From Candidatus Minthosoma caballi (GTDB taxonomy: Bacteria > Bacteroidota > Bacteroidia > Bacteroidales > Bacteroidaceae): 64,000 nt of DNA. Numbering within the stretch: position 1 is the first letter of the stretch; the number at the start of each line of letters is the position of its first letter. The notes under the pieces are model-generated. The model ran no database searches, was not told where the DNA came from, and saw nothing but the letters and a program-made list of their open reading frames with translations. The translations under genes and the position numbers were made by a program. Below are positions 9,200 through 60,172 of the stretch, one piece after another. Where the stretch lies: the NCBI GenBank assembly GCA_018064505.1, contig JAGHVC010000108.1, forward strand, positions 1 to 64,000, read 5' to 3'.

Positions 9200-11584
9200 A
9201 TGAAAAAACCTTTAATCTTATTTGTGGCAGCGATGCTTCTGTCATCACTATTTGTTTGTGCCCATGCTGAAGTTGACGCGCCATTTTCATTTAACATAAA
9301 AAAAACAGATTGGTCCAGAATAGGAAATCAAAACGGAGAGGTAATTGGCACTGTCAGCAGTTCGATGGATCCATTTGATCACTATGAGTTTGAGATTCGT
9401 TGTGAAGAGGATCCGGACATCTTTATTTCCTTCAATAATCTTCTTGCGCAATCAGGCAACATCGTTTGTACTACTTGGGAAGGTGGACATCACGATTTGT
9501 ATAATGGATATCATTATGTGTTGACAATCAAAGCTTTTGATGTTCCTTACTATGATGCTAAACCCGTGGCCATAGACTCATATTCTTTTGTAGGTACGGG
9601 TATTAAGGCTCCAGTTTATTCGAATATCACTCTTACGAATGTGTCTTTGAAACCTAATAAGTTATTGGTGAATGGATACGACATAAATGGCACTACATTT
9701 GATGTGACATTCTCTGCTCCTGTTAGCAAAGTGAAACCTTGGTGGGCAGAAGGATTTGATGGCGCTAAAGATTTTACAGCCCAAAAGAAAGATGATGAGG
9801 GACTTGTGTGGACAATCTCAATGCCTGAGGAGGTCTTGGATGAAGAAGGCTCTATTAATGTCATGATTACAGCTTGGGATCTTAAGGATGTGCAGGTGAA
9901 AGGCGAAGATGGAGATCATGCATTTGCATTGAATTTGATAGTGACTGGAGGCTCTGAGGGTGATGATGAGGAAGGAAATGATTATATTCCAGAAGACGGC
10001 TACACCACAATGAAACTTGGTGAGAACACATTTGCTGGCATGAAACCAGCTTATGGCTTGTATGTTGCAGAATCTGATGGAACTGTGCTTGTGGAAATGC
10101 AGGAAGTAATGCAGGTCTCATATAATGGACAAGAGCGCGAGTATTCTTATGTTCCAGGATCTGATTATGCATACCGTGTTGAGATTGACAATGTTAAGAC
10201 AGGAGGCAAAATTGCTATTAAAAGCGATTTTATCTGGAACACTCTTTCAAAAGTGAAGATTTCTGTCTTCCAAGGCGATGGTGCAGTGCCTGTAGAGATA
10301 AAGGCAGTTATTCCTGCTCAGAATAAGGTATTTGATTGGAATTCAACAGGTCTCATTACATTGAATTTCAATAAGAATGTGATGATTGAAAGCATAAAGT
10401 TTGTGGCAGGTGACTATTCTTGCGATGTTGATGATGTTCATCTTTCAAGCAGCGTCGGCTTTAATATCAGCAAGACACTTAATGACGCAATCAATGATGG
10501 CAAGATTAAAGCTGGCGAGAAGTTCCAAATCAAGATTTCTGGATTGTGCGATGCTGCAGATGAGAAAAACCTTTACAATGGTGATGGCAATCTCACATTG
10601 GAGTATATAGCTCCATCTGCTCAGCATAAGTTTGTTCGTGCAACAGTTGGCGAGAATCAGCTTTCATACACACAAGCAAACACATACAATTTCTTGTCAT
10701 ACTACGCAAAGGATGCGGAAGACGGTTTGTTCGAGTTTGAGTTTGACGGTGAGGTAGGCAAGGTAAGCGATGTTTACATGTCAATGGGTAACCTTGATCT
10801 TGATGCATCGGGCAAGTACCATAGAAGCACTCTTCCTTTCACAATAGAAGGAAACAAGATTATTGTCGATGCTCGCGGCACACTCCGCACTCTTGCAGTA
10901 TTGTTCCCTGCTGTGATTGAGGAAGAGGCAGGTGAAGGTGAGGAAGTGATCAGTGGAATAGGCTCTTACGACACAGAGCATGTGACAATCACACTCTCGA
11001 ATGTGTTGGACAAGAATGGCAATGCGTTCCTTTCTGACAATAGCGGTAGCATCGGTTCTTACTCGTTTGTGATGGGCTACAAGGAGATTGTCGATGAAGC
11101 TTACATTGATGGTGACAACAAGGCAGATGGCGAGAATGTGAATGGTCTTGAGACTATTAGCCTCTGGCTCAGCAATCCAGACATAAAGTTTGAAGGAATA
11201 GAGGTTTCTTATTTCGTTCCTGTGGAAAATGGAGGAGACGAATTAGATGAGTCGCAGGAGTTGAAGACAGAGATTGTGAAGGACTTCACTTCTGTGCCTG
11301 ATGGTCTTGAGGGTGTTATTATTTCATTCAAGATGCCTGTGATGGAAAATGCAGTTGAAGGCTCTAAGGTGCGAGTTTCTCTTCACAATGCAAGCTCTTC
11401 AGATGGAATGCCACATTATTTATATATTGAATTCAAAGCTACTGGCGAGACAAACGCAATAACATCTGTTAGCAAGGTTGCAGAGAATGCTGATATTTAT
11501 ACTCTTAGCGGTGTGAAAGTAAACAAGGATGCTGCACACAAGGGTATTTTCATCGTGAATGGTAAGGCTATGTTGCTGAAATAA
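9200..11584 (+). CDS. Secreted multi-domain (SbsA/Ig-like) protein with C-terminal sorting-type tail
   Basis: Internal start gives a proper signal peptide MKKPLILFVAAMLLSSLFVCAHA; repeated Ig-like modules; tail YTLSGVKVNKDAAHKGIFIVNGKAMLLK. Confidence 0.75.
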   Translation: MKKPLILFVAAMLLSSLFVCAHAEVDAPFSFNIKKTDWSRIGNQNGEVIGTVSSSMDPFDHYEFEIRCEEDPDIFISFNNLLAQSGNIVCTTWEGGHHDLYNGYHYVLTIKAFDVPYYDAKPVAIDSYSFVGTGIKAPVYSNITLTNVSLKPNKLLVNGYDINGTTFDVTFSAPVSKVKPWWAEGFDGAKDFTAQKKDDEGLVWTISMPEEVLDEEGSINVMITAWDLKDVQVKGEDGDHAFALNLIVTGGSEGDDEEGNDYIPEDGYTTMKLGENTFAGMKPAYGLYVAESDGTVLVEMQEVMQVSYNGQEREYSYVPGSDYAYRVEIDNVKTGGKIAIKSDFIWNTLSKVKISVFQGDGAVPVEIKAVIPAQNKVFDWNSTGLITLNFNKNVMIESIKFVAGDYSCDVDDVHLSSSVGFNISKTLNDAINDGKIKAGEKFQIKISGLCDAADEKNLYNGDGNLTLEYIAPSAQHKFVRATVGENQLSYTQANTYNFLSYYAKDAEDGLFEFEFDGEVGKVSDVYMSMGNLDLDASGKYHRSTLPFTIEGNKIIVDARGTLRTLAVLFPAVIEEEAGEGEEVISGIGSYDTEHVTITLSNVLDKNGNAFLSDNSGSIGSYSFVMGYKEIVDEAYIDGDNKADGENVNGLETISLWLSNPDIKFEGIEVSYFVPVENGGDELDESQELKTEIVKDFTSVPDGLEGVIISFKMPVMENAVEGSKVRVSLHNASSSDGMPHYLYIEFKATGETNAITSVSKVAENADIYTLSGVKVNKDAAHKGIFIVNGKAMLLK

Positions 11585-14861: not shown

Positions 14862-17228
14862 ATGTTACTTCGCAAGATATTATTAGGTGTTTCTGCTATG
14901 ATGCTTGGATTGTCAGCTAATGCGCAATCATTAAGCATGCAGAACGCAAATAGATATAATCGCCCTCTTGGATTGAATAATGTTCGCAATCTTCCTGACA
15001 ATCAGTTGCAGAAGATAGGTGAGCATGTTACAGCAAATGCCTATCCAACTCGTGCTGCAGCTAAGCAGATGCTTAAATCTGCAAAAGCTACTGCTCGCAG
15101 AAAGGTTGCAGGTACTGTTGCCCCAAAAAGTGTAGCTGCCAACTATCAGGCAAGTGACACAATTTTCTGGGAGAGCTTTGAGGGATGGGATGGAAATACC
15201 ATGCCTTGGTTGCCAGAGTCTCCAAATAAATGGACAACTAAGTCAAACATTGCAGATTTGACTCCTTATCTTCAGGATGGCAATTGCCCAACCTGGACTT
15301 CATACAAAGGCGACGGATATTATGTGCCATATTCAACTGATGCAGATAACATGCTTGTGTGCATGTTTGGCACAGAAGTGATGAGTGCAGATGGAAAAAC
15401 TGTTATTGCTCCTGCTCCAAAGCAGGATGAATGGATAATTTCACCATCTATCAATGGTATTAACAAGACAAATTATCTTTCGTTTGATATTTGCTACGCA
15501 CCTTGGAATACTCACTTCTTTATCGAAGGTGAAGAAGAGAAGTTTGATGCGAATCGCATAGCTTATGATGTTGAAGTGCTTGTTACTTCTAATACTCGTA
15601 CAATAAGCTACGATTCAGCAGATTATACTCAGGTGTATAAACTTTCAGAGGAGGTTGACAAAGAAATTGCAGGAGTTGACCTTGATGATGATGAGGCTAT
15701 TGGTCAGCTTATGTACATGAATTGGCATCATATTCAGATTCCTCTTACAGACTATGATGGCAAGAATATTCGCGTAGCTATTCGCTACACAGGTACTAAG
15801 GGTGCTTCTATCCTTATTGACGCTATTAGAGTAAGTGATCTTTTGCCTATCGCAAAATATGACATTCCACAGGGTGCGTTCTATTATGGATTCAGCGAGA
15901 AAGCTAATCTGTTCAATACAAAGATTGCGCTTGTACCTGCATTCCAGCCACTTACATGGCAGAATTATTCTAACGAGGATGCTAAGTCATTTGCTTGGAG
16001 CTACATCTCTAATGGTGAGCAAGCAACTTCTACAGACAAGGATCTGCTGATGCCTGCACAGAAGCCAACAGCGCTTGTTGATATGCCAGTTCTTACTGCT
16101 TCTTCATCTGAGAGAAACAATAAGTTTAATGGTGCATACTATAAGGTGGGTGGTAACGCACATTATAGCTACTCGGGCCCTGGCATGAGTTTTGAGGGTG
16201 ATTTCTATGTGGGCAACTTTGACCCAACAAAGGAATTCTGGACAGGACAGATAAATGCAAATCCAGCAAACCCAATCTATGCTTTTGGAACAGGTGGCGG
16301 TGCTTTCTATGGAGAATTATCTAATTACTATTATAACGCAGTAGATGGCATTGGCAATTTCTATGAGAAGCCAGCATCTCCTTATGTGTTCTCTTCTGTA
16401 ATGTTGCCTCTTGGTGATTTCTTCAACTTGGGCGCAACGCTTGCATGTACAATCTATAAGGTTGAGAATGAAAACACTATCACTGATGAAGTAATTGCTC
16501 AGGCAACGGTCAAGACTGGACAGCAGATAGCAGGTGGTTGGTTCCTGATCTTTGATTTCGACAAACCATTGGTTATTGATGATGCAATTTTCATTTTGAT
16601 TGATGGTTTCAATAATAGTAATCTTATGACACTTGCACCTCTTTCTCAGGCTCTCAATCATGACAGCGGAAAGAGCTATGCATTCGTGAAGCTGAACACA
16701 TCAGAGGGTAAGTTTGCAATTGTAGATGTTGCAAATCTTATTTCAGGTGTTGGTGGCGGTGGCAATATGAATGTGTCACATTGCATGGGCATGAATGCAG
16801 TATTCCCATATGTTAGCTCAGTTGAGGGAGATGTATTCACAGTTGCTGATGCAGGCGAAGCAAAATCCTTCAATATTGAGTCGTACTGGGAGCCAAAGGA
16901 CCTTACTATTTCGGCTTCTGACTCATGGATTAAAGCTGAGACAATTGTGAATGAAGTCGAGCACACTCTTGCAGTTAAGATTACAGCTGATGCTCTTGAC
17001 TCGGGCGTTAAGGGCCGTTCAGGAACCGTTAAGATTGAGGGTCTTGGATGCAGCCAAACAATTCTCGTTCTTCAGGGAGAAGAGGTGACTGGCATTAAGA
17101 GTGTTGCAAGCACAGATAATATTGATGGCACTTTCACTCTTTCTGGACAGAGAATCAACTCGGCAGACGCTAAGAACGGAATATTCCTCGTTAAGAAGAA
17201 TGGCAAGTTCGTCAAGATTTTGAAATAA
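14862..17228 (+). CDS. Choice-of-anchor J-type secreted protein with sorting-type tail
   Basis: SDTIFWESFEGWDGNTMPWLPES...WIISPSI module; tail TFTLSGQRINSADAKNGIFLVKKNGKFVKILK. Confidence 0.75.
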   Translation: MLLRKILLGVSAMMLGLSANAQSLSMQNANRYNRPLGLNNVRNLPDNQLQKIGEHVTANAYPTRAAAKQMLKSAKATARRKVAGTVAPKSVAANYQASDTIFWESFEGWDGNTMPWLPESPNKWTTKSNIADLTPYLQDGNCPTWTSYKGDGYYVPYSTDADNMLVCMFGTEVMSADGKTVIAPAPKQDEWIISPSINGINKTNYLSFDICYAPWNTHFFIEGEEEKFDANRIAYDVEVLVTSNTRTISYDSADYTQVYKLSEEVDKEIAGVDLDDDEAIGQLMYMNWHHIQIPLTDYDGKNIRVAIRYTGTKGASILIDAIRVSDLLPIAKYDIPQGAFYYGFSEKANLFNTKIALVPAFQPLTWQNYSNEDAKSFAWSYISNGEQATSTDKDLLMPAQKPTALVDMPVLTASSSERNNKFNGAYYKVGGNAHYSYSGPGMSFEGDFYVGNFDPTKEFWTGQINANPANPIYAFGTGGGAFYGELSNYYYNAVDGIGNFYEKPASPYVFSSVMLPLGDFFNLGATLACTIYKVENENTITDEVIAQATVKTGQQIAGGWFLIFDFDKPLVIDDAIFILIDGFNNSNLMTLAPLSQALNHDSGKSYAFVKLNTSEGKFAIVDVANLISGVGGGGNMNVSHCMGMNAVFPYVSSVEGDVFTVADAGEAKSFNIESYWEPKDLTISASDSWIKAETIVNEVEHTLAVKITADALDSGVKGRSGTVKIEGLGCSQTILVLQGEEVTGIKSVASTDNIDGTFTLSGQRINSADAKNGIFLVKKNGKFVKILK

Positions 17229-29311: not shown

Positions 29312-29351
29312 AATGGCAAGCGTTCAAGATGTGAATGCTTGCCATTTTTTT
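29312..29351 (+). terminator. Rho-independent terminator
   Basis: AATGGCAAGC...GCTTGCCATTTTTTT. Confidence 0.85.
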
Positions 29352-29362
29352 GTTCAGCGTAT

Positions 29363-29555
29363 GCCTTGTGAGACTTTCGACTCACGCCTTGTGAGACGCT
29401 GATCGTATGCCTTATATCACCCGCAACTCACACCTTTTATGTCGCGAATCGTGTGCCTTATACCACCCGCAGTTTATGCCTTGTATCGCACGGTCGATAC
29501 GCCTTGCATCGCGCAGTCGTTGCGCCTTGTATCGTAAAAGTGTTACAAGGCGTAA
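29363..29555. repeat. 23-bp-phased tandem array, 8 forward units plus 1 inverted core
   Basis: GCCTT-type cores at 29363, 29386, 29409, 29432 (ACCTT), 29455, 29478, 29501, 29524, then AAGGC at 29547; every interval is exactly 23 bp. Confidence 0.85.
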
Positions 29556-29871
29556 GTTTTTAAGGTTTTCTTCGTTTTTTTGTTGCTTTTTAGCATTTGT
29601 GGAAAAATCGGCATTCCTTTTATGTATTTTTGTTAATAAAAGTAGAGAAATTGTTACTTTTATTGTATATTATTTCAAAAATGATAGCAAATGTATCATA
29701 TTTAAAAGTACATTGTTTTTCTTTTTATTTACTTTGCAACGGAATATTTTCTGTACATAGGTGCTCAATTACAATTAGGCACATCTATCCAGGAAAATTC
29801 CAATCTAACTCTGAATTAATTACACTTATTAATAACCTTTTTATTTACATCATTAATTAATTATTACCTTT

Positions 29872-41746: not shown

Positions 41747-42040
41747 GTTGATATTGAGACTTGAGTCATAAAATGGCTCCGCTATATAATCTAACTGACA
41801 ACATGTCGATATATATTAAACATAGGTAAAAATAAGTCTTTGTGTTATCATGCAAATTGTACAACAGAGTTTTGTATTTAGCCTACAAAAGTAATGAAAT
41901 TAATACAGTTCAGCAATAAATAAACAAAAAAAAAGTGGCTCTGTAGTATATTTTGACTGATTTCCTCATACAGAGTAACGGATGTGTCATGTTCATCTTG
42001 AGCACTCTGTGAGTGCCCCTAATACTCCCCCAAACTCTCT

Positions 42041-42195
42041 GCCTTTGACGCTTCATCGCTTCCGCCTTACAAGCCATAACGCTTCTGCCTGATAAGCGAT
42101 GACGCGTTAGCCTTGCTCGTCTTTAGTGGTGTGACTCACACCACATATACCGGTGTGACTCATATCGCTTTGGTGGTGTGACTCACACCACTAAA
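42041..42195. repeat. 23-bp-phased array, locus C, grading into GTGGTGTGACTCACACCAC palindromes
   Basis: GCCTT/GCCT at 42041, 42064, 42087, 42110; GACTCA at 42133, 42157, 42180; intervals 23,23,23,23,24,23. Confidence 0.8.
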
Positions 42196-42324
42196 AGCTT
42201 CTAAAGGGACTGCTAACATAGGTTTCCTTTGTCTGTCTGCGCAGGTGCAACGCAATGCGTTTCAAAGAGAAATCAATGTAACAAAAGTTTCCTGTGATGA
42301 ACATTTGGCAAATTGCAAACAAAA

Positions 42325-47945: not shown

Positions 47946-48073
47946 AGGTATAGAGTTAGTTGTGTATATTTGCAACGACAGCCTTAGTAATTTTTATTAC
48001 TAGTAATAATTTCTTTTATATTACTTAGTAATAATTTCTTGTACATTACTTACTGACGCATCATTGCTCAATA

Positions 48074-60102: not shown

Positions 60103-60172
60103 GCCTTATCGCATATCGGGCATAAGCCTTAAGGCTTGTAAGGCGTAAGCGATGAAGCGTGACGGGCGCAAG
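60103..60172. repeat. 23-bp-phased palindromic repeat, locus D
   Basis: GCCTT at 60103 and 60126; GGGC/AAGGC/GGGC ending at 60121, 60144, 60167 (23-bp steps); ggcgtaagcgatgaagcgtgacgggcgcaag nearly matches locus A. Confidence 0.75.

Follow-up and report, generated by a model that had tools for sequence, protein, structure and literature searches.

What keeps a five-base core recurring at exact 23-bp intervals while the sequence between the cores differs from unit to unit? The question is posed by a locus at positions 29363-29551 of a 64,000-nucleotide stretch of DNA (the window, meaning the whole stretch that was analysed) from Candidatus Minthosoma caballi, whose genome, a MAG of 3.2 Mb in 245 contigs, was covered by pattern searches and sampled stretches. 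Here we show that this array belongs to a dispersed intergenic repeat family, specific to the species, whose copies are built of near-identical 5-bp cores every 23 bp with covarying symmetric arms and, in many cases, in-phase inverted ends. We also show that related Prevotellaceae have analogous arrays whose sequences are unrelated and whose step is mostly 21-24 bp, or about two turns of B-DNA. Our tentatively preferred reading, held with slightly less than even confidence, is that the arrays form an element-like family restricted to this lineage, in which palindromic units are phased to the helix under constraint on the DNA itself, and that they possibly act as gene-separating sites.

A phased array and its copies in the host genome

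The array lies on the + strand and comprises eight cores at exact 23-bp steps, seven of them GCCTT (29363, 29386, 29409, 29455, 29478, 29501 and 29524) and one a variant ACCTT (29432), followed by an in-phase inverted AAGGC at 29547; the core positions, steps and inverted core reported in an earlier note on this DNA are all exact, the core at 29432 being ACCTT. Around it extends an imperfect palindrome of inverted repeats (29354-29562, no strand assigned) with outer arms TCAGCGTATGCCTTGTGAGAC and TTACAAGGCGTAAG, and 11 bp before it, at 29312-29352 on the + strand, stands a terminator-like hairpin, an inverted repeat with a T-run, that belongs to the upstream gene. That gene encodes an Omp28-domain protein, and beyond the array, on the same strand, lies an ORF of 1126 aa with no Pfam match; a search of genome contigs with the Omp28-domain protein found no relatives. 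Self-identity of 29340-29565 is 0.54 at lag 23, 0.55 at lag 46 and 0.43 at lag 69, whereas 2000 shuffles, scored over lags 5 to 79, never exceeded 0.41. A coding role was rejected: the 117-aa ORF that overlaps the array has no Pfam match, and 23 is not divisible by three.

The window holds two further arrays, both on the + strand. The second phased array (42041-42200) begins with GCCTT/GCCTG cores at 42041, 42064, 42087 and 42110 and continues with GGTGTGACTCACACC palindromes at 42128 and 42175 and a variant between them, while a short third array, from about 60103 to about 60171, keeps the same 23-bp frame, with GCCTT at 60103 and 60126. The joining of GCCTT-type units to GGTGTGACTCACACC palindromes, seen at 42032-42205, recurs in like form at locus L202 on contig C15; the palindrome itself is found in 18 of 45 congeners, mostly at 24-bp steps.

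Across the whole MAG, the spacing scan that the earlier note had proposed returned 100 matches to GCCTT-N18-GCCTT against 2 for a reversed-pattern control, an excess that left its proposal standing, and GCCT-N19-GCCT-N19-GCCT gave 44 matches against 0. Within 150 bp of a detailed set of 36 arrays, found with the 23-bp pattern, 152 core pairs lay 23 bp apart, a count biased upward because the arrays were found in this way, and 2 lay 20-22 or 24-26 bp apart; the scarcity of off-phase cores in the flanks is no product of the choice of pattern. At 46 bp there were 125 pairs against 3 at neighbouring distances, and at 69 bp 93 against 4, with an identity between adjacent units of only 54.5%. The suggestion of selection on phase, or of a mechanism with a fixed unit, thus gains support, as spacing is near-invariant and sequence is not, and as the arrays of relatives keep 21-24 bp in unrelated sequences.

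All 21 arrays whose flanks were called for genes are intergenic, save overlaps with short or doubtful ORFs, and their orientation relative to genes is mixed; apart from those of the window, arrays adjoin ilvC, pyrB, a glgA-like gene and further chromosomal genes (named from sequence by inspection). The canonical 164-bp copy has matches at about 20 other loci, 71-90% identical over stretches of roughly 60-130 bp whose edges coincide with the array ends. Since units match other arrays better than their own (mean identity of the best match 0.78 vs 0.66, with more comparisons made between arrays), the copies look like dispersed multi-unit elements; local duplication occurs in some, as in the homogeneous C166 array. 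At least four subfamilies share the common frame, namely the main GCCTTGTATCG, a GCCTTGCAAGC..GCCCGATAAGCG type, an alternating GCCTT/CGAGC type, and the GGTGTGACTCACACC palindromes that make up the second half of the array at 42041-42200. The GCCTT orientation falls on the + strand in about 18 of 21 contigs (three-core matches), a bias for which no link with GC skew was seen, and a check for carriage by phage, with a single stringent pattern, found no match in IMG/VR.

Symmetry of the units and arrays in related genomes

The complementary arms that had been pointed out around one core of the array (CTCAC-GCCTT-GTGAG) proved to be family-wide: the Watson-Crick fraction of the arms is 0.448 in register and 0.175-0.262 when slid by 1-3 positions. 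Covariation reaches z >= 3 at 6 of 11 pair positions, with a maximum of 6.9, relative to column shuffles, which leave the relatedness of units in place; the slid-register control keeps it. Neither G-T pairs (333, expected 354) nor A-C mismatches (265, expected 270) are in excess, and the symmetry therefore looks DNA-level, since selection for RNA hairpins should favour G-U on the transcribed strand. By virtue of their in-phase inverted cores, many arrays are imperfect long palindromes; folded as single strands with DNA parameters, the array at 29363-29551 gives a z of -2.6, a modest gain over shuffles that counts against our preferred reading, and the second array -7.0.

As sequence, the family is essentially confined to the host species, with 33 matches in forward and 2 in reverse orientation; none of 44 congeners had more than one. 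A survey of 200 genomes at family level yielded few matches, different in sequence, and the three-core pattern had no match in 458 kb around ilvC of named relatives. The label Prevotellaceae, as used here, rests on IlvC, whose closest named matches come from Prevotellaceae MAGs, Candidatus Prevotella equi and Palleniella. The earlier note had named absence and lack of phase in close relatives as evidence against its idea; the array is indeed absent from congeners as a sequence and present as a kind of structure. In 1.09 Mb of relatives' DNA (60 stretches not chosen for arrays, two of them taken near earlier matches), the arrays that Tandem Repeats Finder located outside ORFs show a peak period of 21-23 bp. 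A separate lag scan of 14 relatives placed 57 of the 72 arrays with a lag of 15-40 at 21-24, best lags between 9 and 60 fell at 20-24 in 38 of 68 arrays, and shuffled regions gave no arrays; 51 of the 68 lags lie near one, two or four helical turns, classes chosen after the data had been seen. The step is near-constant within genomes (22 in 12 of 14 arrays of G008, 23 in 4 of 4 each in G098 and G213; permutation p = 0.044), and unit sequences vary between arrays of one genome. Because these unrelated arrays hold a nearly equal step, spacing and symmetry seem to outweigh sequence.

Palindromic units recur among the relatives, such as AAACAATATTGTTT plus 8 variable nt in G008 and TCCTTGCAAGGA plus 10 variable nt in G222. 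In a palindrome test, 11 of 38 consensus units reached p < 0.05 and 8 reached p < 0.01, whereas the 19 arrays of other periods gave 3 and 0, respectively; among relatives, palindromy is lacking in some arrays of 22-23 bp, which counts against our preferred reading. Of 45 congeners, 18 contain the palindrome GGTGTGASTCAYACC, with as many as 66 sites per strand and 0 control matches; the sites, where listed, are mostly 24 or 48 bp apart. Array density per intergenic kb is 0.29-0.58 in Prevotellaceae, 0.13 in other Bacteroidales families and 0.06 in other Bacteroidota, with 0 arrays in 100 kb of E. coli, the samples outside the family being small. From position 14887 of stretch L184 onward (genome G306, same class, another order) runs a long 42-bp (2 x 21) array of ACAG..AATTATG units, possibly a case of phasing outside Bacteroidales.

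Placement and turnover of the arrays

With genes called as long ORFs only, arrays of the relatives are present in 17 of 93 gaps between convergent genes, 25 of 248 between tandem genes and 4 of 96 between divergent genes (convergent vs divergent, p = 0.0023). In relatives, 14 of 46 arrays have, within 150 bp, a terminator-like hairpin that reads into them, as do 26 of 179 intergenic stretches taken at random (p = 0.017); the corresponding association in the host genome was not significant, which counts against our preferred reading. The gap between nhaC and pyrB contains an array in the host genome and none in the close relative G221, which has the same gene pair. Downstream of ilvC, the arrays of different species are unrelated in sequence; UBA1720, with an IlvC that is 99% identical, has CCTAGG about every 10 bp at this position, and stretches L301, L229, L236 and L243 likewise show CTAG/CCTAGG every 9-11 bp there, roughly one helical turn. 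The 3' end of ilvC as a special array site, promising in 29 congeners, was rejected: 18 of 70 named species have an array there, which is no enrichment over other gaps (20 of 94), and we therefore make no site-specific claim.

Known elements, competing explanations and a possible role

The closest described element is BrickBuilt of Porphyromonas gingivalis (order Bacteroidales), a minisatellite/MITE of imperfect, spacer-less 23-nt tandem units with predicted long stem-loops, intergenic and dispersed over 19 loci (PMC4596501). The arrays described here are likewise tandem, intergenic and dispersed, with 23-nt units and no spacers, a likeness of layout and unit length (the BrickBuilt unit sequence is published as a logo figure); with so close a precedent, the earlier view that the array fits no nameable feature class was too strong. 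The two differ at their ends: BrickBuilt has a non-repeat leader and tail with IS5-like TIRs GAGACCTTTGCA / GAGACCTTCGCA (PMC4596501), whereas our arrays end in inverted in-phase cores, and a search within 400 bp of the 36 arrays found such a TIR at a single site, with one mismatch, near 1 of the 36. BrickBuilt was the one comparable element found in open-access full text, where others may have been missed and where nothing was found on 22/23-bp repeats in Prevotella.

Other known systems resemble the arrays in part. REP/BIME repeats also form intergenic palindrome clusters, expanded in a species-specific manner and often beside gene ends, but they have no fixed 22-23 bp frame, bear GTAG/CGTC tags and depend on RAYT. 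Matches to Y1_Tnp (PF01797) exceeded the cut-off in 4 of 11 genomes; the host genome had none over the cut-off, and array-rich G008, G005, G042, G155, G141 and G098 had no match at all. A RAYT/REP origin was rejected and membership of this class is unsupported, because several array-rich genomes lack matches to the Y1 transposase. Iterons and tandem operator arrays also present sites about two helical turns apart on one DNA face; iterons, however, are near-identical and lie at a replication origin beside the initiator gene, whereas our arrays are diverged, covarying and scattered over many gaps, and no replication initiator gene adjoins the array at 29363-29551, whose neighbours encode the Omp28-domain protein and the 1126-aa ORF. 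The iteron-like reading once offered for this locus, if meant as a plain iteron array, is thus unsupported, since no site is conserved over its full length and copies are spread over many intergenic regions. CRISPR arrays share regularly stepped and sometimes palindromic repeats, but the arrays here step by 21-24 bp in total, have no protospacer-length spacers and occupy many loci per genome. A period-66 tandem array at 9977-10278 of stretch L153 (G155), unrelated to the phased arrays, has a repeat that contains AATTTCTACTATTGTAGAT, as in Cas12a CRISPR repeats.

What, then, could have produced such arrays? That they act as RNA elements, with tandem transcript hairpins that stabilise, terminate or process RNA, is very improbable. 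Several arrays do fold better as RNA than their shuffles, and a few, among them that at 29363-29551, have T5-T6 after a terminal inverted repeat; yet RNA folding z ranges from +0.7 to -8.2 with neither strand consistently better, gene orientation is mixed, G-U pairs are not above expectation, and some arrays lie beyond a terminator. Rfam gave no match at gathering scores in the window, so that a known RNA family was rejected, and a relaxed search of five array loci returned just weak matches to eukaryotic miRNA families, taken as chance because miRNAs are hairpins of similar size. Of the RNA or cruciform role considered in the earlier note, the RNA hairpin is disfavoured by the Watson-Crick-only compensation without wobble excess, and the DNA hairpin stays in play. 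That same compensation would also follow from template switching, on which a stronger contender relies, one that we consider possible at clearly less than an even chance: the arrays may be a selfish or neutral by-product, in which fixed-step copying or repair (for example, through staggered nicks two turns apart or fold-back synthesis) makes the units, template switching perfects the palindromes, and functionless arrays persist where they are harmless. Sequence turnover between species, patchy presence and local homogeneous duplications such as the C166 array fit this account, and the avoidance of divergent gaps may merely reflect purifying selection on promoters. It sits less well with the near absence of off-phase cores despite 45% divergence between units and with the recurrence of a 21-24 bp step across unrelated sequences; an enzyme that copies at a fixed step could account for the latter, though not for the lack of later indels.

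Improbable, too, is a non-autonomous BrickBuilt/MITE-type element on whose terminal repeats a transposase acts, with the 23-bp units as passengers. Dispersed copies, sharp edges and ends complementary by eye, as a generic MITE would have, speak for it, as do the presence or absence of the array in the nhaC-pyrB gap and the 23-nt intergenic units of BrickBuilt; against it stand the lone, mismatched TIR and the equal step in unrelated sequences, which it leaves unexplained, and no target-site duplication, partner transposase or parent transposon was found, the ends being too ill-defined to call duplications; the first two of these also count against the preferred reading. Such an origin is compatible with the preferred reading, and both can hold.

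Under the preferred reading of DNA-constrained, gene-separating arrays, the constraint would act on double-stranded DNA, through spacing and dyad symmetry, rather than on an RNA or protein product, and copies would spread as multi-unit, MITE-like elements that later diverge by substitution. At the weakest step of the argument, the arrays may set palindromic sites on the same face, about two turns apart, near the points at which transcription units end. A dimeric DNA-binding or nucleoid protein might dock there, or hairpins might extrude under supercoiling; docking or extrusion would then separate neighbouring genes, and arrays would be kept away from divergent promoters. We consider rather unlikely a wider version, in which Prevotellaceae and, less so, other Bacteroidales carry arrays defined by geometry and not by sequence, keeping dyad symmetry and a helical spacing of about one, two or four turns while sequence turns over between species, to be read by a protein or as DNA structure and to punctuate transcription units.

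If spacing and symmetry are conserved and sequence is not, annotation based on alignment would miss such elements, for which Rfam gives no match and which are abundant in the sampled Prevotellaceae (about 0.3-0.6 per kb of intergenic DNA). The arrays would then point to a DNA-organising or transcription-insulating system, as yet undescribed, in a lineage that is prominent in gut and rumen or, alternatively, to a new process that amplifies repeats at a fixed step.

Two other short repeats were seen in the window: an intergenic pair of near-identical 23-bp units of different sequence (ATTAAAAAGCGAAGACTTATCGA) at 657-702, and an AT-rich 25-bp tandem array of palindromic units (TTACTTAGTAATAA) at 47991-48052.
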